From positions 1 through 30,988 of IMG/VR virus record IMGVR_UViG_3300043420_001327: a DNA stretch of 30,988 bases; one strand, written 5' to 3'. Numbering within the stretch: position 1 is the first letter of the stretch; each line of letters starts with the position of its first letter. Origin of the DNA: a virus. Position numbers and translations under genes: made by a program. A model generated the notes under the pieces. The model was not told the DNA's origin and searched no databases. It saw nothing but the letters and a program-made list of their open reading frames with translations. Of this stretch, positions 1-17,468 are shown piece by piece.

Positions 1-1536
1 CCGTTTGTCCTTTTAGATATTCGCTCTCCAGTATCTACAGGACAAACGGCACTATATGTTTATGGTGATGCAAGAATTACTGGTGATATTAATATTGATG
101 ATATTATATTAGACCAAGCAGATGTAAACAGATTATATGTAACTCAAAATATTGATATTAATGGTGGAGGTAGATTATATGTAAGCGGTATCACAACATT
201 AGCAAGTTATGTTGACATCAACGATTCTGTCGATATTAACGAAGATTTAAATGTTGTTGGATTAACTACTTTAGGTGGTTATGTTGATATTAATGATTCT
301 GTTGATATCTCAATTGATTTAAATGTTGTTGGATTAACTACTTTAGGTGGTTATGTTGACATTAATGATTCTGTCGATATTAACGAAGATTTAAATGTTG
401 TAGGATTAGCTACTCTTGGTGGTTATGTTGACATTAATGATTCTGTTGACATTTCAACTGATTTAAATGTATCTGGTATTGGTACAATTGGAATTGTTGA
501 GATTTCTTCAGGTATAATTACAGCAACGAGTGGAATTATAACTTACTATGGTGATGGTTCTAATCTACAGAATATTCTTTCTGGTGTTGGTATTGCGACT
601 GAGGGTGGATTAGTAGGTACTGGCGCTACTATTCTTGATTTACGTGGACCAGGAGTATCTACAGTTACAGTATCTTCTGGCATAGCAACTATTAATATTT
701 CTGGTGGTGGAGGAGGTGCTTCTGTAAGCATTAGTAGCGTAGCACCATCCCTCCCAGCAAGTGGAGACTTGTGGTATAGTACCGAATATGGAAGAACCTT
801 TGTATGGTATGATGAAGTTATTCTTGGGATAGGATCTACTGCAGTTTGGGTTGACGCATCTCCATTTAATCAAACTGGTTCTTTCTTGAGCATATATGGT
901 GGAAATATGCTTGCTGGTTTGGGGGTAACCTCTGGTTCTTTAAGTGCCCCAAGTGTATATTTTAACAATTCAACCAATAGTGGATTCTATTCTCCATCTT
1001 CTGGTCAATTTGGCATCGTATCTGTTGGTACAGAAATAGTTAATGTAAATGCAAGTGGGATTAATGTTAGTGGAGTAGTTACTGCAACAGATTTTAATGC
1101 TTCTGGAATTATAACTTCAAGTGGTGCTATTGTTTCTGGAATCATAACAGCATCCGGTGCTTCATTTAGTGGTAATGTAAGTATTGGAGATGTCTCTATA
1201 GGAGCAACAATCACTCCTTCTGGGGATGGTAGTTTCGTTGGTGTAATTACTTGCTTTGATTTGAATACTACATCAGATATATCTTTAAAGCAAAATGTTG
1301 AGACAGTTGATAATGCTTTGAGTGTTGTAAATGAACTCCGTGGTGTAAAATTTGAATGGAAAAAGGATGGAAGACCTTCATATGGTGTGATAGCTCAAGA
1401 ACTTGAGCAAATTCTTCCCGAACTTGTCACTGATACTGATCCAAAAACTGTTAATTATAATGGAATTATAGGAGTTTTGATTGAAGCAGTTAAAGAACTA
1501 TCTGCAGAAATCCAAGAACTGAAGAAGGATAAATAA
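1..1536 (+). CDS. Tail fibre with C-terminal S74 chaperone (5' partial)
   Basis: Frame 1 is open from the first base, so the gene starts upstream of the window. The visible 511 residues begin with a shaft made of four copies of a 24-residue unit (VDINDSVDI..DLNVVGLTTLGGY), followed by a YYGDGSNL motif and a run of SG(I/V)ITA-type shaft repeats. The C-terminus is a peptidase S74 / intramolecular chaperone domain (TSDISLKQNVETVDNALS, then YGVIAQELEQILPELV). In the endosialidase family, Ser and Lys five residues apart form the self-cleavage dyad; here they are the Ser codon at 1273 and the Lys codon at 1288, which would release an 87-residue chaperone after fibre trimerisation. The stop codon lies inside a late-promoter-like box. 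The product is a virion fibre; its exact tail position is unknown. Confidence 0.9.
   Translation, partial: PFVLLDIRSPVSTGQTALYVYGDARITGDINIDDIILDQADVNRLYVTQNIDINGGGRLYVSGITTLASYVDINDSVDINEDLNVVGLTTLGGYVDINDSVDISIDLNVVGLTTLGGYVDINDSVDINEDLNVVGLATLGGYVDINDSVDISTDLNVSGIGTIGIVEISSGIITATSGIITYYGDGSNLQNILSGVGIATEGGLVGTGATILDLRGPGVSTVTVSSGIATINISGGGGGASVSISSVAPSLPASGDLWYSTEYGRTFVWYDEVILGIGSTAVWVDASPFNQTGSFLSIYGGNMLAGLGVTSGSLSAPSVYFNNSTNSGFYSPSSGQFGIVSVGTEIVNVNASGINVSGVVTATDFNASGIITSSGAIVSGIITASGASFSGNVSIGDVSIGATITPSGDGSFVGVITCFDLNTTSDISLKQNVETVDNALSVVNELRGVKFEWKKDGRPSYGVIAQELEQILPELVTDTDPKTVNYNGIIGVLIEAVKELSAEIQELKKDK
211..498 (+). repeat. Four 72-bp tandem units in fibre shaft
   Basis: Units begin at 211, 283, 355 and 427 with an exact 72-nt (24-codon) period. 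They encode VDINDSVDI, then DLNV(V/S)G and, in the first three, a TTLGGY-like ending. Units alternate between two flavours (INED and ISID/ISTD), suggesting a two-unit duplication. The period is in frame, so copy-number change would lengthen or shorten the shaft without breaking the gene. Confidence 0.85.
1528..1535 (+). promoter_or_regulatory. Late-promoter-like box GATAAATA
   Basis: GATAAATA resembles the T4 late promoter core (TATAAATA) recognised by gp55-type sigma factors. It overlaps the stop codon of the S74 fibre (TAA at 1534-1536) and lies about 31 nt upstream of the next start codon. The call rests on the recurrence of this box before seven cassettes in the window; any single box in AT-rich DNA could be chance. 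Confidence 0.5.
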
Positions 1537-1566: not shown

Positions 1567-1752
1567 ATGGCAATCAAAATCAGTGGAGTCACTGTTATTG
1601 ATGACAGCAGAAATATCGTAAACATAGATGCTGTTGGTGTTGGAAGCACAACTACAATTTATTATGGAGATGGTAGTAATTTGGTTGGGGTAGTCACTGG
1701 CGGTGGTGGACTCACAGCTAAAGGTGAGATTTTCTTCATGACAGCAAGATAA
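1567..1752 (+). CDS. Small fibre-module protein (61 aa)
   Basis: This 61-residue protein is MAIKISGVTVIDDSRNIVNI followed by IYYGDGSNLVGVVTGGGG. The YYGDGSNL segment also occurs in the S74 fibre just upstream (IITYYGDGSNLQ), so it looks like one detached fibre module standing alone. No catalytic motif is visible. The start ATG has only a weak upstream purine stretch, but a late-promoter-like box sits just before it. The stop codon TAA runs directly into GGAGG, the ribosome binding site of the next gene, which points to a co-transcribed unit. It may be a small structural or attachment protein; function is not known. Confidence 0.65.
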   Translation: MAIKISGVTVIDDSRNIVNIDAVGVGSTTTIYYGDGSNLVGVVTGGGGLTAKGEIFFMTAR

Positions 1753-1766
1753 GGAGGATTATTTAA

Positions 1767-4058
1767 ATGGCTAGAGGAAGACTTGCTAGTGTTACAATTC
1801 CACCTTATTCGTCGGGTAAAGTATACACGAATAGTTCTGGAAACGAAGCATCGGTTACTTTAAATACAGTAGTTTTGGACGCAACCGCTTGCTCAGAAAT
1901 TTCTGTAGGAATTAGTACATTTTCCAATTTAGAAACGAGCAATGTTAGCATTGCTCAAACATCATGTACTCCATGGTGTTGTATATCATCTTTTTCATAC
2001 TGTGCAGATTCTACATGTCAACTGTACTCTGGATATTATGCTAAACCAATTTGTACTGGATGCACTCCTTGTGTAACTGGTTGCTATTTTCCAAATTATG
2101 TCGATTCTTCTGGTAATGTAACTTCTTTTGTAAGCAGAAGAAGCGATGTGACGGTTTGTTGCCAGAACGTATGTTGGTGTATGTGTTGTCTATTCTATTG
2201 TAGTGGAAGTGCATCAAACTCTGTCAGTGGTTCTTGGTGCTACTTTACTACTGCTGTTGGTCTCTCAACAAATTTGACTTTTGATTCAACATTGACAAAT
2301 AGAAATGCTTACGAAAATCCAGAATTCTTATTGCAAAGTAATATTTGCACAACTTCAAATGGCAGTAAATTCCCGGTAATTTCTATTGATTGTAATGGAT
2401 GTGTTAATTACTTTAGTGACACTACTTTGACAACTCCAACTGCAAGAGCAAAGCATTTTATTAATTCAAAACATGCGGGGAGTTGTACACCAACTGGTTC
2501 AAGTTGTTTTCCATATTTTACTGCTGCAACTGATTATTGGTCAACCGAAAAAACAACAGTAGGAATATATGCGTTAAATTATACTAATGCTACGTTCTTT
2601 TGCAGAACAACCTATGAAGGTAATTGTGCATCCCTTCCTGATTGTGTAGTTACTTCTGCCGTTAATCTTTTGAATCCCAAGTGGGCATATACTTGGGTAG
2701 AAGGATCTACAGTTTGTAGTGCAAAAGTTTGTGACGCTTTTACTCCTTGTTGTTCTTGGTATACTGCCGGAGGGGCTTCTGGCACGATATCTGGGTGGTG
2801 CGGTCTTTGTTTTAATATGAGTAGTTGCTGTATATGTACAGTAGGAACTGGATGGGCATTCACCAATAGTACAAATATGTCCCCTTCCTTTAATGATTTT
2901 TCTACAACATATATTACAAATACTTGTACTATTGGTGAATCTGGCTTTGCATTGGCAACTTGTTCCGGCGCTTGTTGTATTGTAGCTTTTAATGGTTGCT
3001 CATTTACTCCAGCAATTACAAAGTATTTTGTAAATGAGTCTGGTCCTTCTGTTCTGGCTGGATGTAATATTTTCGCATATCAAAATACAATACCAGTTGC
3101 TGGTTCATGTTGTATCGTTGCTGTTGGATTTATTGCAGGTTGTGGGCAAACATTAAGAGATGTTTTATCTTGTGCTTGTAAACCAACTGTAGATTTGTGT
3201 GGATGCTGTACTGTTTGGGGATCTTACAATAGAACTTTTTCTTCCAAAGTATGTACTCCACCTTTTGATAGTTCTACAATGTGTTATATGCCAAATCCAG
3301 TAAAATGGATGACATATAATCCAAATACTTGTTGTAATTATTTTATGCTTCATGTTGGAACAATTGTATGCAGTTGCAATGTTCCATGTCAAAATGGAAT
3401 ATACTCAATTTGTCATCCAACAATTTGTAATGTAACTACAAGCTTGAGTTATTGCACTGGATGTTTTTGTTGCAATTGTCTAAAATATCCTGCCAGAGTT
3501 CATAGAGTAGCGGATGATTCTTCTGACTATGCCATATGTGACAATAATCCTTACACTATCTCATTTAGTGCTATCGGATATCTAGCTGGTTGTAATTTTT
3601 GCTGTAGTAGCGTATGTAGATATTCAACTGCATTTACTAGAGTTGGTTGTTTGCCATCTGAATTTACGAATTGCTGTTTCTATTGCTTCTGCCCTTCTCC
3701 ATTAATAAGAACTGGAGACTCTGAGTGGAAATTTGGTGTTTATGAGAATGGTACTTGGGTTGATTATGTTTCTTGCAACTTAACGTGTTGGCAAAGACAG
3801 TGTTCTTATTATGGAGGTACTGGGGGATTAATAGCACAAACACCTTATAATTTTACCCTAATATCATGTAATACTTGCATACTTCAAATATGCGAATGTT
3901 TTTATAATGTAATTTCCAATTCAGAATATTTGGATTACAGAGATAATGTGAATGCAGTCGAAAGAACCGGATTAGTATTATCTGACCAAGATAGCATTTA
4001 TGTATCAAATGGATCAAATCAAAATGTTTCTGTACAAGTTTGGGGGTATGAAGGATAA
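1767..4058 (+). CDS. Giant cysteine-rich putative tail adhesin (763 aa)
   Basis: I do not recognise a family. By hand count about 80 of 763 residues are cysteine, all between about residue 42 and residue 700, with about 12 CC pairs and motifs such as CTGCTPC and CWCMCC. The region is also rich in Ser, Thr, Asn, Tyr and Trp and poor in Lys. The N-terminus (MARGRLASVTIPPYSSGKVY) and C-terminus (SIYVSNGSNQNVSVQVWGYEG-like) lack cysteine and are closely matched by the 109-residue protein at 4366. The architecture is therefore two conserved ends around a huge cysteine-rich insert. No signal peptide or membrane segment is seen. A strong GGAGGA site lies 8 nt before the ATG. Its place between fibre genes and before a chaperone-like gene suggests a virion adhesin tip; the cysteines could form disulfides after lysis or bind metal. 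Role is inferred. Confidence 0.85.
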   Translation: MARGRLASVTIPPYSSGKVYTNSSGNEASVTLNTVVLDATACSEISVGISTFSNLETSNVSIAQTSCTPWCCISSFSYCADSTCQLYSGYYAKPICTGCTPCVTGCYFPNYVDSSGNVTSFVSRRSDVTVCCQNVCWCMCCLFYCSGSASNSVSGSWCYFTTAVGLSTNLTFDSTLTNRNAYENPEFLLQSNICTTSNGSKFPVISIDCNGCVNYFSDTTLTTPTARAKHFINSKHAGSCTPTGSSCFPYFTAATDYWSTEKTTVGIYALNYTNATFFCRTTYEGNCASLPDCVVTSAVNLLNPKWAYTWVEGSTVCSAKVCDAFTPCCSWYTAGGASGTISGWCGLCFNMSSCCICTVGTGWAFTNSTNMSPSFNDFSTTYITNTCTIGESGFALATCSGACCIVAFNGCSFTPAITKYFVNESGPSVLAGCNIFAYQNTIPVAGSCCIVAVGFIAGCGQTLRDVLSCACKPTVDLCGCCTVWGSYNRTFSSKVCTPPFDSSTMCYMPNPVKWMTYNPNTCCNYFMLHVGTIVCSCNVPCQNGIYSICHPTICNVTTSLSYCTGCFCCNCLKYPARVHRVADDSSDYAICDNNPYTISFSAIGYLAGCNFCCSSVCRYSTAFTRVGCLPSEFTNCCFYCFCPSPLIRTGDSEWKFGVYENGTWVDYVSCNLTCWQRQCSYYGGTGGLIAQTPYNFTLISCNTCILQICECFYNVISNSEYLDYRDNVNAVERTGLVLSDQDSIYVSNGSNQNVSVQVWGYEG

Positions 4059-4354
4059 TGCCTAAGTACGTTTACACAAATCAAGTTCCGGAAAATCCAG
4101 AAAATAATGATTTTGTTGAAGAAATAAATATATTTCAACATATGAGATCTATCAGAAATCAGTTGCTAAGTGAAAGTGATTATATTGCAACTTATGATGT
4201 TTGGACTTCTTTAGATGAAGAACTGAGATTAAAATGGTCATCTTATAGACAATCTTTGCGAGACGTTCCTCAACAAGAAGATTTTCCAAACAGAGTAATT
4301 TGGCCAATAAAACCAACTGATGAAACCGTTGATGTTGATGAAACCGTTAGTTAA
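4058..4354 (+). CDS. Tail-assembly-chaperone-like protein
   Basis: This 98-residue acidic protein has the pattern RNQLLSESDY, then WSSYRQSLRDVP and FPNRVIWPIKP. It matches the conserved core of small phage tail-fibre assembly / tail assembly chaperone proteins (Pfam Phage_tail_APC, PF16778-like). Family members usually lie directly after the fibre or adhesin they help fold. The ATG overlaps the stop of the cysteine-rich gene (TAATG), so translation is probably coupled and the cysteine-rich protein is the likely client. Related C-terminal cores occur at 24965 and 29342. The last 11 residues carry a repeated DETV. Confidence 0.7.
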   Translation: MPKYVYTNQVPENPENNDFVEEINIFQHMRSIRNQLLSESDYIATYDVWTSLDEELRLKWSSYRQSLRDVPQQEDFPNRVIWPIKPTDETVDVDETVS

Positions 4355-4365
4355 GGAGAATAGAT

Positions 4366-4695
4366 ATGGCTAGAGGAAGACTTTCATCAACAGCAATAGG
4401 TAGTGGAAATGCTGCATTAGTTTATTCAAATGAATCTGGACAGGAAGCTTCTATTACCATTAGAGGAGAATCTTTAGGTGGTTCTTCAACTACTAGTGTT
4501 GGCATTTCTACACTAAACATAAGTCCTCTTAATTCATCTACATTTTTCAGTTGTATGGATAATGTGTATATCAGATATTCAAAATCGGCATGTTGTTTTC
4601 TTATAGATGGATTGGTTATATCTAATAATGATAAAGTATATGTTTATAATTCCGGAACAACTGTATCTGTTCATGTATATGGGTATGAAGGTTAA
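4366..4695 (+). CDS. Short paralogue of the cysteine-rich protein
   Basis: This 109-residue protein opens with MARGRLSSTAIGSGNAALVY and ends with DKVYVYNSGTTVSVHVYGYEG-like sequence. Both ends match the 763-residue protein at 1767, including 18 identical bases at the start. Only three cysteines remain, in a short central part (FFSCMDN, SACCFL). It is either the minimal ancestral scaffold or a form that lost the long insert. A TAAGGAG site joins the upstream stop to its ribosome binding site. A small virion or adhesin-associated protein is likely. Confidence 0.75.
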   Translation: MARGRLSSTAIGSGNAALVYSNESGQEASITIRGESLGGSSTTSVGISTLNISPLNSSTFFSCMDNVYIRYSKSACCFLIDGLVISNNDKVYVYNSGTTVSVHVYGYEG

Positions 4696-4762: not shown

Positions 4763-5707
4763 ATGCCAAAAAGAAAAGTTTTTGCCATCGATGGTGGTGC
4801 GGGTAGAGTACTAGCAGCAATTCCTGCACTTGAAAAATATGCAAAAAAACATTCCGAAGACGACTGGGCAATTGTTGTTTTTGGGTGGGATGTTTTATTT
4901 TTTGGTAACACCCTTCTTCAGGATAGAGTTTTTAGTGCAGATGTAAAGGGAATATTTAATAATCTATTAAAAGACTCTGAAATAGTATCTCCAGAACCAT
5001 ATCGTCTTTGGGAATATTATAATCAAAAATGCTCTTTATCTGAAGGGTTTGATAAAATTATAAATGAGACTGATGATCATTCAGATTTAGGTAAACCAAA
5101 TATATACCTATCAAAATCTGAAGAGAAAATGGCAGCAAACATAATTGCTGACGTTAAGAGCAAGCAACAAAAGAAAACGACTATTGTAATTCAACCATTT
5201 GGCAGATCTGCTAAAGTTGATAATGGTGATGTTATTGATGAAAGTTCTCGTTCTTTGGAACCATTAGTTTATCTAGATCTTATCAAGAAACTTGGGCAAA
5301 AGTATAATATTATTTTAATGGCAGAACCAGAGTATTCTCAGGTTCTTAATGAGCATGACCAGATATCCTTCAAACTTCAATCTGACTTACGAGGGTGGTC
5401 ATCTATTATTGAAGCATCAGACTACTTTATTGGATGTGACAGTGTTGGGCAACATATGGCAAGAGCATTTGATAAACCTGGAACTGTTATTATGGGTTCA
5501 ACCTTTGCAGTAAATACAACGTATCCAGATTTCTTCCAAATTATTGAAAATGAAAATGTGGAAAAAGTTTATTCGCCTATTCGTATTTGTGGATTTGATT
5601 GCCACTTAGCAGATAGATTAAATGATACCTGTATGGATTTTGACAAAGAACATGTTGAAGAGATTTATAAGAAAATAGATGCACATATTAAGGAGAATGT
5701 AAAATGA
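4763..5707 (+). CDS. GT9-like (heptosyltransferase-type) glycosyltransferase 1
   Basis: This 314-residue protein has an N-terminal IDGGAGRVLAAIPALEKYA segment, placed like the glycine-rich start of GT-B enzymes. Its C-terminal half carries ASDYFIGCDSVGQHMARAFDKPGTVIMG when read across the motif, the pattern seen in glycosyltransferase family 9 (ADP-heptose:LPS heptosyltransferases), where D-S-G/V-x-x-H-x-A contacts the nucleotide sugar. It is about 30% identical by eye to the protein at 17468 and shares PEPY and TDDHSDL motifs with it. The 3' end overlaps the carbamoyltransferase by 4 nt (ATGA), so the two are translationally coupled. ADP-heptose enzymes lie just downstream, making ADP-heptose the likely donor; acceptor and exact activity are inferred. 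Confidence 0.65.
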   Translation: MPKRKVFAIDGGAGRVLAAIPALEKYAKKHSEDDWAIVVFGWDVLFFGNTLLQDRVFSADVKGIFNNLLKDSEIVSPEPYRLWEYYNQKCSLSEGFDKIINETDDHSDLGKPNIYLSKSEEKMAANIIADVKSKQQKKTTIVIQPFGRSAKVDNGDVIDESSRSLEPLVYLDLIKKLGQKYNIILMAEPEYSQVLNEHDQISFKLQSDLRGWSSIIEASDYFIGCDSVGQHMARAFDKPGTVIMGSTFAVNTTYPDFFQIIENENVEKVYSPIRICGFDCHLADRLNDTCMDFDKEHVEEIYKKIDAHIKENVK

Positions 5708-7470
5708 CTTATAACATCCTAGCAATTAATCCTGGACATAATGGTTCTGTCGCACTAGTATGTGATGGAAAACTAGAACTTTATATTGAGGAAGAAAGAC
5801 TTTCTCGTATGAAATATGATGGAAATCCTTTTCGAGGGATGATTCATATTTTAGAAAGGTATAAAATTGATGAATTTGTAATTGGTGGAACTGGACAAGA
5901 AGACCATAGACTTCCTTGGACGGGTGAAAGTTCTTATGTTGCTTTGGTTCGCAAGTATTATCCAGAAGTTAAGGTTCATTTACTAAATGGAGAACATCAT
6001 CATGGACATGCTTGCTCCGCATTTTATAATTCTGGATTTGAATCTGCTGCTGCAGTAATCGTAGATGGTTCTGGAAGTCGTCAGCAGGTAAGAATAAATC
6101 CATTTGGTGATAAACCAATAGACTATGAAGCATATGAAACTGAAACCATTTTGCACTGCAAATATCCAAATTCTTTTGAGAGGAAATATAAAAGATATTC
6201 GAATAATATCCTACCAAAAATAGAAGATAGGGGCAATTACTTAGATTGTGCTGTTACGACAGTGAAAGCATATGAAGCAGTAAGTTATTACCTTGGATTT
6301 GGATTTATTGAAGCTGGCAAAACTATGGGACTTGCTCCTTATGGTAAAGAAGATGAAAATATTCCTCAACTTCTAATTGGTGAGGATAAACGAGGTGATA
6401 AGAATATCTTCATTCCAAATTATCCAGCTGGTGCATTTATTGATGGAGCTAGATATCCTTATTTGGAACTTAAAAGAGACCCTGCAGAATGGCATAGAGA
6501 TCCATCTAAGTTGGATGACGCATCTAAAAATCTTGCATGGAAGATTCAAAAAGAAACGCAAGAATATGTTGGAGACTTAATTGATAAAGCGGTTTCTCTT
6601 ACTGGAGAAAAAAATATCGTTATCTCCGGTGGATATGGGTTGAATTGCGTTGCAAATTACTATTACAAGGAAAGATTCCCAGAGTTGAATATTTTTATTG
6701 ACCCAATTTCGCATGATGGGGGTAGTTCTATTGGTTTGGCTAAATTTTTCTGGTATGAATATTTGAGAATTAATCGCCTCGGAGATGAATATGGAATCAT
6801 TAGGGATCCTTTGACAACACTTTACTTGGGTATTTCTAGAGATTATGTTGAAGAAGATCTTGATAAATTTGATGATATTGAAGTTAGTGATGTGACGGCT
6901 GCTGATGTGGCAAAACTGATTCAAGATAGAAATATCGTATCTATTTTCCAAGGAAAGTGTGAGGCAGGTCCACGAGCACTTGGCAATCGCTCAATTCTTT
7001 ATGATCCAACAGACCCAAATGGAAAAGACTTTGTTAATACTGTGAAGGGTAGAGAGTGGTTTAGACCTTTTGCTGGTACTGTGCTCAAAGAACACGCGAG
7101 TGAATGGTTTGATCTTAGGGGAATGGAAGAAAGTCCTTTTATGATGTATGCCGCCGATCTTACAAGTAAAGCAATTGGAGAACTACCATCTATTACTCAC
7201 GTTGACGGTACTTGTAGGGTTCAGACTGTTACAAAAGAGCAAAACAAGCACTATTATGAATTAATAGATGAGTTTAGAAAACTAACAGGAGTTCCTGTAT
7301 TGTTTAATACAAGTTTTAATCTTGCAGGAGACCCACTTGTAGAAACTTTAGAGGATGCAATTCACACTCTTCGTGAAAGTGAATTAGAATATCTATATCT
7401 ACCAGAACTTAAAAAACTGATAAAGGTTGAGAATAGAGAAAAATCTATAGACCCAGAGGTTTTAGAGTAA
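5704..7470 (+). CDS. NodU/CmcH-family carbamoyltransferase 1
   Basis: This 588-residue protein has the full-length NodU/CmcH layout. The N-terminal Kae1-like domain shows AINPGHNGSVALV, EEERLSR, the metal-site motif HHHGHA (residues 98-103) and a DGSGS phosphate loop (121-125), then KTMGLAPYGK and ISGGYGLNCVAN. The C-terminal domain has GPRALGNRS, REWFRPFAG and FNTSFNLAGDP. These enzymes move a carbamoyl group from carbamoyl phosphate through a carbamoyl-AMP intermediate to a hydroxyl, often on a sugar. The gene is coupled to the GT9-like gene before it, so a transferred sugar is a likely acceptor. Its 3' end overlaps the convergent gmhB-like gene by 9 nt. A second family member is at 15777. 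Confidence 0.9.
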   Translation: MTYNILAINPGHNGSVALVCDGKLELYIEEERLSRMKYDGNPFRGMIHILERYKIDEFVIGGTGQEDHRLPWTGESSYVALVRKYYPEVKVHLLNGEHHHGHACSAFYNSGFESAAAVIVDGSGSRQQVRINPFGDKPIDYEAYETETILHCKYPNSFERKYKRYSNNILPKIEDRGNYLDCAVTTVKAYEAVSYYLGFGFIEAGKTMGLAPYGKEDENIPQLLIGEDKRGDKNIFIPNYPAGAFIDGARYPYLELKRDPAEWHRDPSKLDDASKNLAWKIQKETQEYVGDLIDKAVSLTGEKNIVISGGYGLNCVANYYYKERFPELNIFIDPISHDGGSSIGLAKFFWYEYLRINRLGDEYGIIRDPLTTLYLGISRDYVEEDLDKFDDIEVSDVTAADVAKLIQDRNIVSIFQGKCEAGPRALGNRSILYDPTDPNGKDFVNTVKGREWFRPFAGTVLKEHASEWFDLRGMEESPFMMYAADLTSKAIGELPSITHVDGTCRVQTVTKEQNKHYYELIDEFRKLTGVPVLFNTSFNLAGDPLVETLEDAIHTLRESELEYLYLPELKKLIKVENREKSIDPEVLE

Positions 7471-8088
7471 AGTATTTGCAAAATCAAAAAGGGTGTCAAA
7501 TATTTTGACATCCTTATATTTTGGATTAAAAGACTTTAAATATTTTTCTTCTGTTGCTAAACCTTTTCCTGTTCTCACTAAAACGGGAGTGGCTCCTATT
7601 TTGAGTGCCATCTTGATATCATCTATAGTATCGCCAACATAATATCCTTTATCAAACTCTACTTGCAATTCATTTTGTGCTCTATTCAACATTCCTATGT
7701 TTGGCTTAGCAAATATATCCTGATGATTATCTGATTGATTGAAGTAGAATCCATCAATACTAAAGATTCCATTTTGTCCAAACATTTGCATCATGTGGTT
7801 CATGACATTACTAACTTCAGCACTTGTCAAAAGACCCCTACTAATGTTAGGTTGGTCAGAGAATAAGACAACTCTATATCCACTAAGTCTTAAATTTCTA
7901 ATTGCTTGAAGAGATCCATTTATAAATTCTACATCTTCGTATCTTTTTATTATACTTTTCCACTCATTTATTACTCCGTCTCTATCAATCCCAATCACAC
8001 ATTTTGGAAATTCTGTAGGCCAATCGTTAGGATCGTACTGTTGCTGTTGCTGCTCGGCAAAAAATTGTTTTGTTTGATATCTACCCAT
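7462..8088 (-). CDS. gmhB: GmhB-like heptose-1,7-bisphosphate phosphatase
   Basis: This 208-residue HAD phosphatase shows GIDRDGVIN (catalytic Asp35 and Asp37), then FSDQPNISRG, KPNIGML and GDTIDDIKMALKIGATPVLV. Order and wording match GmhB/HisB-N phosphatases, which remove the C7 phosphate of heptose 1,7-bisphosphate. Compared with E. coli GmhB, the zinc loop (CxH...CxC before KPHPGML) is missing: DGFYFNQSDNHQDIFAKPN has no cysteine. There is a 28-residue N-terminal extension with a glutamine run. The gene is divergent from the HldC/HldA pair, across only 40 bp. Substrate is inferred from the neighbouring heptose genes; a different sugar bisphosphate is possible. Confidence 0.75.
   Translation of the reverse strand: MGRYQTKQFFAEQQQQQYDPNDWPTEFPKCVIGIDRDGVINEWKSIIKRYEDVEFINGSLQAIRNLRLSGYRVVLFSDQPNISRGLLTSAEVSNVMNHMMQMFGQNGIFSIDGFYFNQSDNHQDIFAKPNIGMLNRAQNELQVEFDKGYYVGDTIDDIKMALKIGATPVLVRTGKGLATEEKYLKSFNPKYKDVKIFDTLFDFANTLL
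7491..7513. terminator. Candidate bidirectional terminator hairpin
   Basis: GGGTGTCAAA-tat-TTTGACATCC forms a 10-bp stem with one G-U pair. On the minus strand it is followed by TTTTTGATTTT; on the plus strand by TTATATTTT. It lies inside the 3' end of gmhB and just past the convergent carbamoyltransferase, the right place to stop transcripts from both sides. It is also coding sequence, so chance cannot be excluded. Confidence 0.45.
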
Positions 8089-8118
8089 AATTATTTTAAA
8101 ATTTCATATCAGTGTTAC

Positions 8119-8124
8119 ATTATA
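8119..8124 (-). promoter_or_regulatory. Candidate gmhB -10 box (TATAAT on minus strand)
   Basis: The minus strand of the 40-bp divergent gap carries TATAAT about 30 nt before the gmhB ATG. The -35 region at 17 nt spacing reads TTGTAC, a weak match. On the plus strand only TATATT directly against the ATG at 8129 is seen, so a separate promoter for the HldC gene is unclear. Confidence 0.35.
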
Positions 8125-8128
8125 TATT

Positions 8129-8545
8129 ATGACAGAAAAAAGTACAAAAAAAGTATTTGTTAATGGAACATTTGATGTTTTGCATCGCGGACATCTAATG
8201 CTATTAAACTATGCGAAAAGTTTGGGCGACTATCTTATTGTTGGTATAGATAGTGATGCCAGAGTAAAAGAGAAGAAAGGTTCATCAAGACCAGTAAACA
8301 GTGCAGAGGAAAGATCTTTTATGCTGATGAATTTGAAATCAGTGGATGAAGTTCGTTTCTTTGGAACTGATAAAGAACTTGAAAACTTAGTAAAATCCAT
8401 AAAACCTGATATAATGGTGGTAGGAAGTGATTGGAAAGATAAATCTGTTATTGGTTCTTACTATTCTTCAAATCTCATATTCTATGATAGGATAAATGAC
8501 TACTCAACAACAAAAATCGTACAAAGTATTATTGATAGGGGATAG
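8129..8545 (+). CDS. hldC: Heptose-1-phosphate adenylyltransferase (HldE C-domain type)
   Basis: This 138-residue protein matches the C-terminal half of E. coli HldE in order: FVNGTFDVLHRGH (nucleotidyltransferase HxGH-type site), LGDYLIVGIDSDARVKEKKG, SSRPVNSAEER, VDEVRFFG, KPDIMVVGSDW and YSTTKIVQ. The family joins heptose 1-phosphate and ATP to give ADP-D-glycero-beta-D-manno-heptose. As a stand-alone protein it corresponds to HldC of species with split genes. No strong Shine-Dalgarno precedes the ATG. The downstream kinase gene starts 50 nt before its stop, in another frame. A different nucleotidyl acceptor (glycerol-3-phosphate type) is less likely, given the RPVNSAEER segment and neighbours. 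Confidence 0.85.
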   Translation: MTEKSTKKVFVNGTFDVLHRGHLMLLNYAKSLGDYLIVGIDSDARVKEKKGSSRPVNSAEERSFMLMNLKSVDEVRFFGTDKELENLVKSIKPDIMVVGSDWKDKSVIGSYYSSNLIFYDRINDYSTTKIVQSIIDRG

Positions 8546-9248
8546 TTGTACCGATCGTTATATCTATGGTGAAGTAAAGAGATTAAACCCTGAAGCACCA
8601 GTTCCCATTCTTGAGTATAAAAGAACTGAAATACGTCATGGTATGGCATGGAATGTTTATAACAATCTAAAAGCATTTGATTTGGATGTTTATATGCTAA
8701 CCAATGAAGAAAAGATAATAAAAACTAGATATATTGAAGAAAAAACAAATCAGCAGATTCTTAGATTGGATGAAGAGAAAAAAGTAAATCCAATACCTTA
8801 TAATATTCCAGATGATAAGTATGATGCTGTTGTTATAAGTGACTATGATAAAGGATTTATAACCGCGTCGAAGTTATTTGAAATTGTTTATTCGTCTAAG
8901 TGTCCCGTCTTTATTGATACCAAAAAAACAGTTTTGCCAAAGTATAATTGTTTCATCAAAATCAACGACTTAGAATATTCAAAATTAACTGAAGAATATG
9001 ATAATGTTATCATAACTCGTGGAAGTAGTGGTGCTGAGTATGATGGGGTGTTATACCCAGGAGAAAAAGTGAATGTTTATGATGTGGTGGGTGCAGGCGA
9101 TACTTTTCTCGCTGCGCTCACTTTTGGGTATCTGAAGTTTGGTAATATACCAAAAGCCATTCAATTGGCAAATAAGGCAGCTGCGATAGCAGTTTCCAAT
9201 CAAGGAACTTATGTATTAACTAAAGAAGATGTCAGAAAACTCTATTAG
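8496..9248 (+). CDS. hldA: Heptose-7-phosphate kinase (HldE N-domain type, PfkB family)
   Basis: This 250-residue PfkB-family kinase matches the N-terminal half of HldE: GDSCTDRYIYGEVKRLNPEA near the start (HldE has GD..LDRY.YG...R.SPEAPVP), then RHGMAWNVYNNL, QQILRLDEE, VVISDYDKG, ITRGSSGAEY and the GAGD active site (199-202) in DVVGAGDTFLAALTFGY. It phosphorylates C1 of heptose 7-phosphate. At 250 residues it is shorter than the roughly 320 of HldE kinase domains, with losses in the lid region. The ATG at 8496 lies inside the upstream gene (50-nt overlap); no later ATG keeps the nucleotide-binding start, so the overlap is real. AGGA sits very close to the ATG. Confidence 0.85.
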   Translation: MTTQQQKSYKVLLIGDSCTDRYIYGEVKRLNPEAPVPILEYKRTEIRHGMAWNVYNNLKAFDLDVYMLTNEEKIIKTRYIEEKTNQQILRLDEEKKVNPIPYNIPDDKYDAVVISDYDKGFITASKLFEIVYSSKCPVFIDTKKTVLPKYNCFIKINDLEYSKLTEEYDNVIITRGSSGAEYDGVLYPGEKVNVYDVVGAGDTFLAALTFGYLKFGNIPKAIQLANKAAAIAVSNQGTYVLTKEDVRKLY

Positions 9249-9591
9249 ATTTGTTCCCAAAGGATGGGGATATGAAAAATGGATTGTCAATAATGAAGAA
9301 TATTGTGGCAAAATTCTTTATATTGTACAGGGGAAAAAATGCTCCTGGCATTATCACAATCTCAAGGATGAAACTTTTTATGTTCAGTCTGGATCTATAA
9401 AGTTACTATACTCTGAAGATGATAATATAGAACTTGCAAATATATGTTTCCTAAAAAAAGGTGACAAATTCCACGTTCATCGTGGTCTTCGTCACCAAAT
9501 GATTGCTCTTGAAGATACTGAGTTGTTTGAGTTTTCGACTCAGCACCTTGAGAGTGATAGTATTAGAGTTATCCGAGGAGATACTCTTTGA
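9229..9591 (+). CDS. Cupin protein, mannose-6-phosphate-isomerase-like
   Basis: This 120-residue single-domain cupin has both cupin motifs: WHYHNLKDETFYVQSG and HVHRGLRHQMIALED, followed by ELFEFSTQH. The histidines and glutamate of the first motif and the final histidine would bind a divalent metal. It begins with a PKGWGYEKW segment common in cupins fused to or resembling GDP-mannose pyrophosphorylase / phosphomannose isomerase type II. It overlaps the kinase gene by 20 nt and so belongs to the heptose operon. A role as sugar isomerase or epimerase is plausible; it could conceivably supply heptose-phosphate isomerisation, which is otherwise missing, but there is no direct support. Its 3' end overlaps the convergent hldD gene by 23 nt. 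Confidence 0.75.
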   Translation: MSENSIRFVPKGWGYEKWIVNNEEYCGKILYIVQGKKCSWHYHNLKDETFYVQSGSIKLLYSEDDNIELANICFLKKGDKFHVHRGLRHQMIALEDTELFEFSTQHLESDSIRVIRGDTL

Positions 9592-10432: not shown

Positions 10433-10543
10433 ACTACAGGAACTTCTCAGCAGTTAGATGCAATTACAACTATAAAAGCAGATTTTCCTCAAAGAGTTGA
10501 TGGTACTGGAAGAGCACAAGAACTTGTTGAGTACTTTAACTAA
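10421..10543 (+). pseudogene. Start-less remnant fusing an oxygenase start to a chaperone tail
   Basis: A 40-codon frame runs from AGG at 10421 to TAA at 10543, with an in-frame stop just before it and no start codon. It begins (R)AYQ where the paralogous gene at 14396 begins MAYQ; a T-to-G change turned ATG into AGG. It ends ADFPQRVDGTGRAQELVEYF, matching the C-terminus of the protein at 13798 with 16-17 codons deleted between two GT-containing sites. It looks like the join left when a block between an oxygenase start and a downstream chaperone-like gene was lost. Confidence 0.7.
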
Positions 10544-10551
10544 TCTAAATA
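10544..10551 (+). promoter_or_regulatory. Late-promoter-like box TCTAAATA
   Basis: TCTAAATA follows the stop of the start-less remnant by one base and lies 23 nt before the ATG of the module A fibre, at the same distance as the boxes at 24935, 25449 and 27493. Confidence 0.5.
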
Positions 10552-10574
10552 CTACAAGGATAATTAAAAATAAA

Positions 10575-11228
10575 ATGAGTCAAACAAAAGCTCAACTACT
10601 TAATCCTACTGGAACAGTAACATTTGAAGGTATTAATGTATCTGGTGTAACTACTGTATCTAATATAGATGCATCAAGTTTAAATGTATCTGGTGTAACT
10701 ACTGTATCTAATATAGATGCATCAAGTTTAAATGTATCTGGTGTAACTACTGTATCTAATATAGATGCATCAAGTTTAAATGTATCTGGTGTTGCAACAG
10801 TAACTAATGTAAATACATCAGGTTTAAATGTATCTGGTGTAACTACTGTATCTAATATAGATGCATCAAGTTTAAATGTATCTGGTGTAACTACTGTTTC
10901 TGGATTAAACAATAGTGGAGTTACTAGCACTAGCAGTCTTTTTGTAGAAAATTCTGTATATAATGCTATTTCAACAACATCAATAAGCAAAACTCTTGTA
11001 AATCGTGAGTTTTGTGAGGTTGTTACTTCGGGATTAACAATAACATTACCTGCCAGTCCTTCTTCTGGATGGGAAGTGTCAGTAAATGTTGGCAATTTTA
11101 CAGACACTATTATTGGTAGAAATGGAAGTAATATAATGTCTCTTGCAGAAGATTTAACTCTTGATGTTGCATATCGTCAAGTTGATTTTGTTTATGTTAA
11201 TTCAACAGTTGGTTGGAGGATAGGTTAA
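10575..11228 (+). CDS. Module A tail fibre with 16-residue shaft repeats
   Basis: I start this 217-residue protein at ATG 10575 (MSQTKAQLLNPTGTVTFEG); an upstream in-frame ATG at 10497 would run through the remnant and lacks a binding site, while AAGGA lies before 10575. The shaft has five full units of a 16-residue repeat, NVSGVTTVSNIDASSL. The C-terminal domain (ITLPASPSSGWEV, FTDTIIGRNGSNIM, VGWRIG) is shared with the fibres at 20213 and 25479. Its last codons (TGG AGG) supply the ribosome binding site of the adhesin gene that begins 1 nt after the stop. It is probably a short trimeric fibre that carries the Gly-rich adhesin. Confidence 0.85.
   Translation: MSQTKAQLLNPTGTVTFEGINVSGVTTVSNIDASSLNVSGVTTVSNIDASSLNVSGVTTVSNIDASSLNVSGVATVTNVNTSGLNVSGVTTVSNIDASSLNVSGVTTVSGLNNSGVTSTSSLFVENSVYNAISTTSISKTLVNREFCEVVTSGLTITLPASPSSGWEVSVNVGNFTDTIIGRNGSNIMSLAEDLTLDVAYRQVDFVYVNSTVGWRIG
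10635..10898 (+). repeat. 48-bp tandem repeat, four copies nearly or fully identical
   Basis: Units start at 10635, 10683, 10731, 10779 and 10827, with a partial unit at 10875. Units 1, 2, 3 and 5 read as the same 48 bases; unit 4 differs at many sites. Identity at silent positions means recent duplication or homogenisation. The array encodes the fibre shaft. Confidence 0.9.
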
Positions 11229-11229
11229 A

Positions 11230-12495
11230 ATGGAAAATTTGCAGAGGTTTTTCAGTAATTCTAAAAGTACAAGCACAAAACTTAATAGAAGGATTATGTA
11301 TGGTCCTTCTAATGAACTTTGGCCAGTACCACAAGGAACAACAGAAGTAGAAGTTCATGTGTGGGGCGGTGGAGGTTCTTCGTGTAGATTATGTTTTTCA
11401 CCTCCTTCATCTGGTGGGGCAGCAGGCGCAGGAGGGGGTGGAGGATATGCTCGTGCTAGATATTCTGTAACGTCCACTGATTGTCTTTGTATTACTGTTG
11501 GTGGTAATGGTGGAACTTCCTCTGTTACTATTGCAACTCAAAGTCCAACATCACCAGTAAGTGCTACTGGTGGAGGTAATGCTACTTGTGTTCCCGGATC
11601 TCCTTGTGGATCTGTTGATGGTGGTGTAGGTGGAAGTGGTTCAGTTTCTTTGGGACCCACCCATTCAACTACATATTGTTTTACAGCATCTGGTGGAAAT
11701 GGCGTTGGTGCATCTTCTTATCCTACTACTCCTGGACCAGCTCCATCTGTATGTCGATGTGGAGGAGGAGGAGGAGCTGCTGGATCTCCTAGAGGTAATG
11801 GTGGTGATGGAGGATTGTCGAAAAATACAAATGAACCTGGTCCATCAGTGATATATGGAGCAGGTGGATCTATAGGTCTTGGTACAGCATATACTTTAGC
11901 TGTAGATGGACTTGATAATGGATGTAAGGCTTATATAGTTTATGGTGGATCATCAGATACCCGAAATGGATTTAATTACGATAATGTTGTTAATGAATCA
12001 AGTTGTTGTTATCCACTAAATTTTGGTGGTAGTTGTCCCAACTGCTCTGTATTTAGAAGTATGATATCGTTTGGGTATCCACACTCATATGTAACTGCAG
12101 GAAAATTTGGCGCATATACTAATCCAGTAAGTCCTGGTCAGGTTTCTTATGGGTATACGACAGATATAAACGTAAGAAATATTGATTCTTGGTTTTATGT
12201 TGAAGATATTCCTGGATATGGTGCAGTTTCTCATTTGGGGTGTGGTTCATTTTGTCCAAATGTTGCAGCAGTTAGAGTTGCCTTTAATGCTCAAGATGGT
12301 GGTGGTGGAACGCAGAACTTTCCTGCAGGTCTTTTAGGTGGTGGAGGCGGTGGAATTATTCCTGGAACTTGTGGATGCTATACGACATATGCTGGATGCG
12401 CTGGTGGGAGTGGAAGTGTTAATGCTTCAAATCAATGTTGCTATACTTCAACTTCTATTCCGGGAACTCCTGGTGTAGTAATCATTTATTGGTAA
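11230..12495 (+). CDS. Gly-rich, Cys-rich tail adhesin A1
   Basis: This 421-residue protein has the entry motif WPVPQGTTEVEVHVWGGGG, typical of phage Gly-rich domain proteins (Gly_rich_2-like), followed by many polyglycine runs (GGAAGAGGGGGYARARY). It ends in GTPGVVIIYW. Such proteins resemble the polyglycine-layered receptor-binding tips of T4-type phages. Unusually it has about 21 cysteines in pairs such as CC, CxC and CPNC. It is 43-bp identical over its entry motif to its tandem paralogue at 12511. Start follows the fibre stop by one base, with GGAGG supplied by the fibre's own last codons. It is probably a host-range determinant. Confidence 0.85.
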   Translation: MENLQRFFSNSKSTSTKLNRRIMYGPSNELWPVPQGTTEVEVHVWGGGGSSCRLCFSPPSSGGAAGAGGGGGYARARYSVTSTDCLCITVGGNGGTSSVTIATQSPTSPVSATGGGNATCVPGSPCGSVDGGVGGSGSVSLGPTHSTTYCFTASGGNGVGASSYPTTPGPAPSVCRCGGGGGAAGSPRGNGGDGGLSKNTNEPGPSVIYGAGGSIGLGTAYTLAVDGLDNGCKAYIVYGGSSDTRNGFNYDNVVNESSCCYPLNFGGSCPNCSVFRSMISFGYPHSYVTAGKFGAYTNPVSPGQVSYGYTTDINVRNIDSWFYVEDIPGYGAVSHLGCGSFCPNVAAVRVAFNAQDGGGGTQNFPAGLLGGGGGGIIPGTCGCYTTYAGCAGGSGSVNASNQCCYTSTSIPGTPGVVIIYW

Positions 12496-12510: not shown

Positions 12511-13779
12511 GTGTCAAATTTTTCTCAGTTTTTTCCAAGTTCTATTCCAGCAGAACAAATACTTACTATATCAACTCCTGGAAATAAAAGGAATCGTCAA
12601 ATTTTTTATGGACCATCTGTTGAATCTTGGACAGTACCACAAGGAACAACAGAAGTAGAAGTTCATGTGTGGGGTGGTGGTGGAGGTGGTAATGGAACTT
12701 TTTGCACAGGATCTGGTGGTGGAGGAGGATATGCTCGTACAAGATATAAAGTAAGTTCGTCGGACATCTTATGTGTTACCGTTGGTGGTAATGGTGGAAC
12801 TTCATCAGTTACTATTCCAACTCAATCGCCAATATCACCTATGAGTGCTACTGGTGGAAGCAATTCTCCATCACTAGATCCTGCATGTTGTGTATGTTGC
12901 AGTCTTCCATCACCGAGTGGTGATACTGGAGGATGTGGATGTATTTCAGGTGGTGCTGGTGGGAGTGGTTCAGTTTCTTTGGGACCTTTACATCCAAGAA
13001 GTTATTGTTTTGTCGCTTCTGGTGGAACTGGTGGTTGTGGTTCTTATTGTTGTTTTTTGGCAGGTTCTACTCATCCATTTCCGAACGCAACTGGATTTGC
13101 AGCTGCTTCTAAAGGAGGAGGAGCTGCTGGATCTCCAAGAGGTAATGGTATAGATTCTGCAGTAGTTTGTCACGCATTCACTTTAACGACAGTTCCCAAT
13201 CAAAATATGAGTGGTGGTGGAGGATCTGGTATAGGTGGATATGGTTTATGTCATGGTGGAGGTAGCAAATCTAGTGCTTATGATTCGCCTGGATCTGCTA
13301 CTTCTTGCTTACTTGGTCCAGTTAGTGTTGCTGGAATGGGTGCAAGAGTAAGTTATACCACATGTGTTGCAGGACCATCTCCGGCAGGATGTGTTGCATT
13401 AGTAAATCATTTCAAATTAGCTGATTGTAGAGATGATACTTGGTTTTCTGTCGAGGATATTGGTGGTGTAGGTGGATTGAGTTTTGGTCTAAAATCGATA
13501 GCACAAAGTATGAGTCAAAATGGAGGAACTGGTGCTGGTGGGGGAGGATCAACTTTACTGCAAATACTTAGCCCCAATCCATCAGTATGGTGTGCTGGAT
13601 CGTGCGGAAATAGTTTTCCGGCAGGAAATGGTGGATTATTGGGAGGAGGAGGTGGACATACTGTAAGATGTTCATCAGTAGATGGATTTATTCAATCTAA
13701 TGGTGGTTATGGTGGTTGTGCTGGTGGATCTGGTGGAAACACACCGGGAACCCCAGGTGTTGTTATAATTTACTGGTAA
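12511..13779 (+). CDS. Gly-rich, Cys-rich tail adhesin A2
   Basis: This 422-residue protein starts with GTG (MSNFSQFFPSS) behind a CGGAGGT site. The SQFFPS opening recurs in the adhesins at 20801 and 26076, while the middle (WTVPQGTTEVEVHVWGGGG) and end (TPGVVIIYW) match the upstream adhesin A1, so it looks like a hybrid of both types. It has about 22 cysteines (ACCVCC, GGCGCIS, SYCCF) among glycine loops. Tandem duplication with divergent central loops suggests two alternative receptor tips, or two subunits of one tip. TAA is followed by an AAGGAGG site for the next gene. Confidence 0.85.
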   Translation: MSNFSQFFPSSIPAEQILTISTPGNKRNRQIFYGPSVESWTVPQGTTEVEVHVWGGGGGGNGTFCTGSGGGGGYARTRYKVSSSDILCVTVGGNGGTSSVTIPTQSPISPMSATGGSNSPSLDPACCVCCSLPSPSGDTGGCGCISGGAGGSGSVSLGPLHPRSYCFVASGGTGGCGSYCCFLAGSTHPFPNATGFAAASKGGGAAGSPRGNGIDSAVVCHAFTLTTVPNQNMSGGGGSGIGGYGLCHGGGSKSSAYDSPGSATSCLLGPVSVAGMGARVSYTTCVAGPSPAGCVALVNHFKLADCRDDTWFSVEDIGGVGGLSFGLKSIAQSMSQNGGTGAGGGGSTLLQILSPNPSVWCAGSCGNSFPAGNGGLLGGGGGHTVRCSSVDGFIQSNGGYGGCAGGSGGNTPGTPGVVIIYW

Positions 13780-15776: not shown

Positions 15777-17468
15777 ATGATTACACTTGGGCTTTATGGA
15801 GCTTTTGATTGGAGAGCTGATAAATCTTTTAACGAGTTTGGAGAGACTACATGGGTACATGATGCTGGTGCTACTTTATTTGTGAAGGGTAAACATGTAT
15901 GCTCCATTTCTGAAGAGAGATTATCTCGTCTAAAGCATGATGGAAATTTTCCAATTAGATCAATTGGATATTGTATGGATGTTGGAAATATTTCTCCAGA
16001 AGATGTTGATGTTGTTTGTGTTCCTTCCATGTGTCTCAGTATCTTCTATAAGAAGTGGTATGAGGGGACTATTCAAAAAATTATTTCAGGAATCTTTCCT
16101 AATGCAAAACTCAAACTTGTATCTCACCACTTAAGTCATGCGGCAGCAGCGGTCTTTTCTTCTGACTTCAATGAAGGTTCTTTTCTAACTCTTGATGGTG
16201 CAGGTTCTCTTACTTTCAATCAAGATCTTTCTAGAACCTACATGGCAGAAACCAATTCAATTGGTTACTTTAATAAAGATAAAGGTATCTTCCGATTCTT
16301 TAATGGTATTTCTGGAGCAAATAATTTTGGTGGTTTCTACCATGGACTTTCTCATCACATCTATTGTGAAAAAATTCAAAAACAAATTGATGGATATGAT
16401 GAAAAGTATCGGGAAACTTGGGATGGAAAAATCATGGGACTTTCTGCATATGGATGCTCATTAGATTTTTCTGAACGCCATAAACTTTACAGGATGTCAA
16501 AAGACCTTTGTTATGATGATATCCCATATGTTTCTTTTGCAGAAAATCCTGCTGAAGCATTTAAGTTTACAAATGCAGATGAAAAGGCATATATTCTTCA
16601 AAAGAATTTTGAACTTGCTCTATTGGATTATGTAACTGAACTTAAAGATAATTCTTATCTTGAAGATAACATTTGTCTCTCTGGCGGATCTTTCTTGAAT
16701 GTTCTTGGTAATAGTGTTCTGAAGCAGAGTGGATTGTTTAAAGGAATTCACGTTCCTCCTTGCCCCAATGATGTCGGTTTGCACTTTGGTGCTGCTTGCT
16801 TTGCTCAGTTTAAAAATGGCGAAACCATCAAACTTCCAGATAATATTGCTCTTTTGGGTAGAGAATATACTGAAGAAGAAATTGAATATGCTCTGAAAGA
16901 TAATCAAGTTAACTACGAAAAGTATGATAACTTTGATGAACTTTGTGAGTTCACTGCTTTACAGTTGAATGACAATAAAATTATTGGATGGTTCCAAAAT
17001 CGTTCTGAGTTTGGTCCCAGAGCACTTGGATCTCGTTCACTTCTAATGCATCCTGGTCCTGCTGAAAATAAGGATATTGTGAATGAAAGAGTTAAGCATC
17101 GTGAATATTGGAGACCATTTGCAGGTATTATTCTTGAGGAGCATTTAAATGAATACTTTGAAGAAGATTTCAATTCTCCCTACATGCTATACTCTCTTAC
17201 AGTCAAAGAAGACAAAAGAGGCGAAATTGGGGCAATTACTCACAAAGATAACACTTGCCGTATTCAAACAGTAAATGCTAAAATGAATACACAAGTGAAC
17301 ACTTTGATTGAGAAATTCAAGGAAGTATCTGGTATCCCAGTACTTCTAAATACATCATTCAATGATAATGGTGAACCTATTGTCGAATCACCACAAGATG
17401 CAGTAAAGTCCTTTAAAAATATGGACATCGATTATCTTGTGATTGGAAACTTTATTGTAAGGAAGTAA
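15777..17468 (+). CDS. NodU/CmcH-family carbamoyltransferase 2
   Basis: This 563-residue protein is full length for the family. It shows ISEERLSRLKHDG, the metal motif HHLSHA (117-122), LDGAGS (139-144), KIMGLSAYG, ICLSGGSFLNVLGN, GPRALGSRS, REYWRPFAG and LNTSFNDNGEPIV. It is clearly diverged from the enzyme at 5704, with a 30-residue N-terminal variation (YGAFDWRADKSFNEFGETTW) before the usual HDAGATL motif, so the copies are unlikely to be a recent duplication. It overlaps the next GT9-like gene by 1 nt. The pair mirrors the one at 4763-7470 in reverse order. Confidence 0.9.
   Translation: MITLGLYGAFDWRADKSFNEFGETTWVHDAGATLFVKGKHVCSISEERLSRLKHDGNFPIRSIGYCMDVGNISPEDVDVVCVPSMCLSIFYKKWYEGTIQKIISGIFPNAKLKLVSHHLSHAAAAVFSSDFNEGSFLTLDGAGSLTFNQDLSRTYMAETNSIGYFNKDKGIFRFFNGISGANNFGGFYHGLSHHIYCEKIQKQIDGYDEKYRETWDGKIMGLSAYGCSLDFSERHKLYRMSKDLCYDDIPYVSFAENPAEAFKFTNADEKAYILQKNFELALLDYVTELKDNSYLEDNICLSGGSFLNVLGNSVLKQSGLFKGIHVPPCPNDVGLHFGAACFAQFKNGETIKLPDNIALLGREYTEEEIEYALKDNQVNYEKYDNFDELCEFTALQLNDNKIIGWFQNRSEFGPRALGSRSLLMHPGPAENKDIVNERVKHREYWRPFAGIILEEHLNEYFEEDFNSPYMLYSLTVKEDKRGEIGAITHKDNTCRIQTVNAKMNTQVNTLIEKFKEVSGIPVLLNTSFNDNGEPIVESPQDAVKSFKNMDIDYLVIGNFIVRK

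Follow-up and report, generated by a model that had tools for sequence, protein, structure and literature searches.

In Agrobacterium phage Milano, the structural proteins are reported to be enriched in cysteine (2.1-2.4%) and the enrichment is spread over many proteins; disulfides knit the virion together and give it resistance to heat and shear, and the short tail fibres contain intrachain bonds (PMC10811340, PMC10491603). The receptor-binding protein (RBP) of phage phi11 and the phage endosialidases are reported to carry a propeller head on the fibre or baseplate that is thought to bind a surface sugar (PMC4901313). Propeller phage tips and disulfide-rich virions are already known; no description of a tip family with 9-12% Cys, a partner protein of 6-17% Cys and a cysteine-poor sister group, nor any paper on a cysteine-rich phage tail tip, was found in the open-access literature.

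The gene under study, here called P, is an ATG-start ORF at positions 1767..4058 (plus strand) of the window, by which we mean the whole stretch of 30,988 nucleotides analysed (IMG/VR record IMGVR_UViG_3300043420_001327, positions 1 to 30,988). It encodes a putative tail-tip protein of 763 aa with 80 cysteines (10.5%) and 12 CC pairs, and these counts bear out the preliminary description, which had put them at about 80 cysteines, roughly one residue in ten, and about 12 CC pairs. Cysteine accounts for 0.88% of the window proteins other than five high-Cys ORFs, and at this rate 80 cysteines in P have a binomial tail of 7e-58. Position-specific base composition predicts 5.5% Cys, a figure that the Cys codons (58 TGT, 22 TGC) themselves push up. 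As P exceeds it about twofold, its cysteine richness is no artefact of base composition. The first cysteine is residue 42 and the last residue 711, leaving residues 1-41 and 712-763 Cys-free. The cysteine-free conserved ends noted earlier are therefore real and form a small module that exists elsewhere without the insert; their lack of Cys is a trait of the window member, since the P proteins of Marine virus AG-345-O18 and of relative L005 have a cysteine at residue 9.

P of the window consists of the two halves of this module around a large insert, with a tail-chaperone gene adjoining. The N-terminal half (residues 1-65; 1767..1961, plus strand) matches residues 1-65 of the AG-345-O18 protein in BLASTP (E 4e-6), and strands are predicted at residues 3-50 (block pLDDT 72-88). 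The C-terminal half (residues 712-763, ERTGLVLS...VQVWGYEG; 3900..4055, plus strand) is defined by a BLASTP match to AG-345-O18 over 641-763 (E 1e-18) and is likewise predicted as strands (block pLDDT 75-86). A neighbouring ORF of 109 aa (4366..4695, plus strand) is a copy of the terminal module alone, with 3 Cys and a short middle that keeps a CxxxxxxxxxxxxCC-like remnant. When P was searched against the window, residues 1-60 matched this neighbour at 47% identity (E 5.5e-6) and residues 712-763 at 42%. By this split match, P is a small module whose halves are separated by an insertion of about 650 residues, and the stand-alone copy shows, at the level of sequence, that the two ends belong to one module. 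The neighbour may be a stripped copy of P. The insert (residues 66-711; 1962..3899, plus strand), delimited by the Cys positions and by the split match, holds 79 of the 80 cysteines. Its last part (residues 510-711; 3294..3899, plus strand) can be aligned to the last propeller-blade-like stretch of cysteine-poor family members, on the evidence of motifs, a match to the cysteine-poor member L017 and a GH32 profile match. It has the motif YNP ... W ... S-x-D/N-L-x-x-W in common with them; in the P-family alignment, W654 never varies and P519 is conserved to at least 90%.

Among 50,697 phage records, the only match to P was the protein of AG-345-O18, a single-cell virus from the Pacific (L004; 758 aa, 73 Cys). 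The first viral scans with single proteins as query and one scan of genome contigs with the C-terminal module found no relative of P. A search with the conserved ends, as the preliminary description had proposed, uncovered further members in IMG/VR scans. Ten distinct cysteine-rich members are now at hand, with 33-111 Cys in 649-911 aa (Cys/aa: window 80/763, L004 73/758, L005 75/757, L006 94/894, L007 33/674, L012 75/741, L016 62/680, L069 111/911, L072 69/669 and L073 58/649), together with cysteine-poor members (n=14 aligned) that have 2-6 Cys in about 515-555 aa. L015, a copy of L016, was left out, as were L021, L022, L025-L027 and L029, which are on the same contig as, or near-copies of, retained members; L004 is not part of the alignments or the tree. 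In an unrooted tree of the trimmed alignment (367 columns), nine cysteine-rich members separate from the 14 cysteine-poor ones with an ultrafast support of 95. Cysteines were likely gained in one lineage of P, with loss in the other lineage as the alternative on an unrooted tree. None of the 17 members scanned matched PHROGs, and Pfam gave no match for window P or for the cysteine-poor members L017 and L014; window P also lacked a match to Gly_rich_2 (PF21722). In S-IOM18, S-SM2 and P-SSM2, the initial 50 kb contained no long cysteine-rich fibre protein, the high-Cys ORFs there being short or on the reverse strand. The earlier statement that P belongs to no known phage tail family thus stands for Pfam and PHROGs, and sequence comparison places P in an undescribed family, in a cysteine-rich branch with a cysteine-poor sister group.

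The assignment of P as a tail protein is likewise supported, by its genomic context. Upstream lies a tail-fibre protein (1..1536, plus strand), cut at the window edge, with a Peptidase_S74 intramolecular (endosialidase-type) chaperone domain. It is followed by a 61-aa ORF (1567..1752, plus strand) ending in ...GGGGLTAKGEIFFMTAR, which might be a short stem, as judged only from its position directly before P. On the last base of P starts the gene for a tail-fibre assembly chaperone, Phage_tail_APC (4058..4354, plus strand; 98 aa, 0 Cys; PF16778 E 3.6e-18, phrog_4912 E 9.7e-19), and this family also provides the third cassette gene in 8/8 relatives tested, one of them cysteine-poor. In T4-like loci the chaperone has an extra C-terminal part (245-429 aa vs about 100). 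Downstream of the chaperone, the window continues with a phrog_8954 gene and a carbamoyltransferase. In all nine relatives with a cysteine-rich P, P is directly followed by a second cysteine-rich gene, Q (6-17% Cys; Cys/aa 31/290, 31/290, 36/289, 39/235, 42/310, 21/248, 22/235, 17/281 and 24/272). The start of Q in L012 (contig G004) is lost in a run of N between P and Q, and its 16.6% Cys refers to the 235-aa remainder. A search with Q in the 50,697 phage records again matched only AG-345-O18, and Q is absent between P and the chaperone in the window. Downstream of a cysteine-poor P lies either a Gly-rich protein or a cysteine-poor Q with a length of about 200 aa; the profiles of cysteine-rich and cysteine-poor Q match over their N-terminal 75-90 residues (hhalign probability 96.6, E 5e-10). 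The other proteins of seven scanned contigs average 0.55-1.19% Cys, so it is the tip genes that the enrichment targets.

The relatives give indications of the carrier phage. The 67.6-kb contig of L005 (G001) is of the T4-like cyanophage type (Kyanoviridae): it starts with gp59- and gp32-type genes related to those of S-SM2 and P-SSM2. Within its first 20 kb, 93% can be matched to the other contig of AG-345-O18 at 88%. P is located there in a tail-fibre cluster, preceded by long fibre genes, and the gene order resembles that of S-SM2. The L006 contig (G002) also encodes gp32 (phrog_224). Contigs of the cysteine-poor members carry phrog_446 and phrog_457 tail proteins and an internal virion protein, structural genes which we take to be T7-like. 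The window fragment itself has no T4-type core gene, and its matches to phages are only short ones, to AG-345-O18, AG-345-E08 and Synechococcus phage Sf-FS3. Judging from these matches and from the relatives, the window virus probably infects cyanobacteria.

An AlphaFold2 model of window P reached a mean pLDDT of 41.7 and was confident only at the two ends and for a few strands near residues 510-550 and 620-680. The model of cysteine-poor L017, computed with 23 sequences, was better (mean pLDDT 69.5, pTM 0.67). With VIA-align it resembled the Vibrio cholerae sialidase 1kit (Z 12.1, rmsd 4.6, 258 aligned residues), with Neu2 and the fucose lectins AAL and PLL (Z about 11) close behind, and Foldseek returned GH43 and influenza neuraminidase (E about 4e-4) at low TM-scores of 0.2-0.3. 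The P-family profile matched GH32 invertases (E 0.0044; matches at E 0.004-0.006). Sialidases, fucose lectins, GH43, neuraminidase and GH32 are all propellers. Z values of 8-12 at 5-10% identity show a common fold between model and known structures, not a common function. A propeller fold is accordingly predicted for the cysteine-poor member only. As a query, L017 matches P of AG-345-O18 over 337-532 (E 2e-6), and the cysteine-rich members align in sequence to the cysteine-poor family for only the last approximately 200 residues of the insert; we infer that the propeller fold extends to the whole cysteine-rich insert.

The arrangement of the cysteines was evaluated against shuffled sequences. 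In the middle of window P, CC pairs are not above the shuffle (12 vs a mean of 9.45; 450/2000 shuffles reach 12). Pooled over nine cysteine-rich members, CC (106 vs 72.9 expected, z 4.3) and CxC (85 vs 63.5, z 3.1) are in excess and CxxC is not (57 vs 56.1). A regular cysteine ladder, which the preliminary description had considered, was rejected: the spacings in P show no peak and the pooled ones only the CC and CxC excess. The pooled pattern fits strand-to-strand disulfides better than zinc knuckles, as far as spacing can tell. Odd cysteine totals occur in 6/10 P and 5/9 Q (with the L012 Q incomplete), which leaves each of these proteins with one or more thiols that are free or paired between chains.

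Selection was analysed on AG-345-O18 and L005, the only closely related pair. Between them, dN/dS reaches 0.51 in P, 0.62 in Q and 0.69 in the chaperone, against 0.17 in the upstream fibre gene; it is 0.10 for the phrog_8954-like and 0.22 for the carbamoyltransferase-like genes, which were identified in relatives by their starts only. The chaperone thus keeps pace in its evolution with the tips. Within this pair, cysteines are retained more often than other residues both in P (68/73 vs 488/682, p 1e-5) and in Q (31/31 vs 196/259, p 3e-4), and 11 retained Cys codons in P and 5 in Q carry synonymous differences. A cysteine framework conserved across all members was also considered and rejected. 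In a control with shuffled middles, the real number of matched cysteines was reached by 29/40 shuffles for window/L005, 24/40 for window/L072, 40/40 for window/L069, 9/40 for L006/L069 and 7/40 for L016/L073, so that alignment bias explains five of six distant pairs and only L005/L012 (0/40) stands. L016/L007 had shown no excess before the control (14/52 vs 168/544), and 14 invariant Cys columns were dropped as evidence after it. Since the distant pairs fail this control, cysteine positions drift between lineages and a single fixed disulfide pattern is unsupported. As far as can be told from these comparisons, cysteines are held in place within a lineage and in density across the clade, and their positions shift between lineages.

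We propose that P is a propeller-type receptor-binding tail-fibre tip of a T4-like marine phage, held by disulfides that form after release, and assign this reading a probability of about 0.5. Such a phage, most probably a cyanophage, would carry P as the receptor-binding head of its tail fibre; the two ends of P would fold together as a small beta module that may anchor it to the fibre, and the insert of about 650 residues would form a glycan-binding head of the beta-propeller type. Its position, the chaperone and the fast evolution point to a tip in contact with the host, and an adhesin role is likely on these grounds. Sugar binding is suggested by the propeller-like fold predicted for the sister group and by the likeness of this fold to enzymes and lectins. 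In one lineage the head would have acquired its many cysteines, as would Q wherever that partner occurs. As long as the phage is within the cell, these would be thiols; upon release into oxygenated seawater, many disulfides could form and lock the head, and the locked frame might stay while host-facing loops change fast. The chaperone encoded by the next gene would help assembly, as expected from its family. Relatives without these cysteines suggest that the host-binding head came first and disulfide stapling later.

That the cysteines of P are paired as disulfides is our inference, and their dense pattern together with the Milano precedent favours disulfides formed after release. Formation after lysis is plausible by analogy with Milano and agrees with the strong cysteine retention in a fast-evolving P. 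Redox genes in nine records, all fragments, comprised glutaredoxin in 2/9, thioredoxin in 0/9 and DsbA in 0/9, and no dedicated oxidase was found there.

The cysteines might instead bind Zn, Cu or Fe-S, which would lend fold stability in the reducing cytoplasm or provide metal for metal-hungry host surfaces. Metallothioneins, too, use the CC and CxC spacings enriched in the pooled members, and a thiol-metal head would stay stable during assembly in the reducing cell. Metallothioneins have about 20-30% Cys and hardly any aromatic residues, and P, with 10.5% Cys and 98 aromatic residues in 763 aa (44 Tyr, 39 Phe, 15 Trp), was rejected as one. Its His content of only 5 and the lack of an excess of CxxC, the usual zinc-knuckle spacing, also speak against metal clusters, and, going by the L017 model, the cysteine-poor relatives appear to fold without the cysteines. 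The stem of the phi11 RBP is reported to contain an iron (PMC4901313), and this precedent included we regard a metal-clustering tip as rather unlikely. In a further scenario, free thiols or strained vicinal CC disulfides would exchange with thiols of the host envelope, or reduction at the surface would trigger commitment. The odd totals in P and the pooled CC excess are in line with such a redox adhesin, and in Milano, contraction of the sheath is reported to have required a reductant, with disulfide reduction as a speculation of the authors (PMC10811340, PMC10491603). As 80 cysteines are far beyond the need of such an exchange, we consider it quite improbable.

It is very unlikely that P cleaves polysaccharides as a GH32-, GH43- or sialidase-type enzyme instead of binding them, despite the profile and Foldseek matches to these families and despite the acids D202, E341 (12 E, 1 D, 1 Q) and D441 that are conserved in 14 cysteine-poor members. 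In the nine cysteine-rich members, position 202 is Asp in 4/9, D441 is replaced by Asn in 2/9, and position 341 is W, T, Q, T, A, A, A, T and S. The loss of these acids makes catalysis less likely in the cysteine-rich members, and with the missing Pfam match for window P it led us to reject membership in GH33, GH32 or GH43 for cysteine-rich P. Finally, the cysteine excess could be functionless and stem from drift in composition or from relaxed selection, in line with the high dN/dS of P and with cysteine positions that are not demonstrably conserved between distant members. This has hardly any chance of being correct: the close pair, with its preferential cysteine retention in P and Q and its synonymous changes at some of the codons, largely refutes it, and the enrichment recurs in both genes and persists across very divergent members.

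Beyond P, the window encodes four Gly-rich tail-tip-like proteins (11230-12495, 12511-13779, 20801-21823 and 26076-27113) with 20-25% Gly and 17-22 Cys each (4.9-5.2%). Gly_rich_2 (PF21722) scores over the curated cut-off in 12511-13779, below it in 11230-12495 and 26076-27113, and is not found in 20801-21823. Gly-rich proteins in the Q slot of cysteine-poor phages have 1-6 Cys. Short stem-like ORFs with VYVxSxVGWRI-type ends (10497-11228, 20213-20800 and 25479-26075) each lie directly before a Gly-/Cys-rich ORF, and judging by their order such pairs look like repeated stem-tip fibre cassettes. Between the fibre cassettes, a sugar cassette (4763-9591 and 15777-18448) comprises two carbamoyltransferases, two phrog_8954 genes, a HAD phosphatase, a nucleotidyltransferase, a pfkB kinase and a cupin, and could, given these gene families, modify glycans of the virion or the host. 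A bolder form of our proposal, which we put forward as a tentative possibility, is an adhesin set by oxidation: P and Q would be soluble thiols in the cell and be cured by disulfides in oxic seawater as the last step of assembly, with the same happening in parallel on the unrelated Gly-rich tips of the window (about 5% Cys).

If the disulfide-held tip is correct, a phage lineage stabilises its fast-changing receptor-binding heads by a dense cysteine frame, of a kind elsewhere linked to secreted toxins and immune proteins, despite assembly in a reducing cytosol. When and where virion thiols oxidise, and whether infectivity matures after lysis, become testable questions, and the cysteine-poor sister family serves as a natural control by which the contribution of the cysteines can be judged.

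Among known systems, the GH33 sialidases and the fucose lectins AAL, PLL and PHL resemble the modelled cysteine-poor L017 (Z 10.5-12.1) at 5-10% identity. A profile search of solved chains with the P family yielded GH32 enzymes only and no sequence link to the phi11 RBP or the endosialidases. P has in common with these two the propeller head, as predicted in its cysteine-poor member, and differs from them in its anchor domains; both are, as we assume, cysteine-poor. The tail fibre protein YP_008126340 of S-IOM18, which occurs in 290 cyanophage records, may have the C-terminal module in common with P (VDRITSLVIGPGERLIVES...LIGFED), according to a Foldseek match of its BFVD model (E 2.6e-6) with an hhalign probability of only 28.6; it is unlike P in having a different middle and 0 Cys. 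Compared with Milano, whose 2.1-2.4% Cys is distributed over many proteins, the phages of the P family concentrate 5-17% Cys in their tip genes only.
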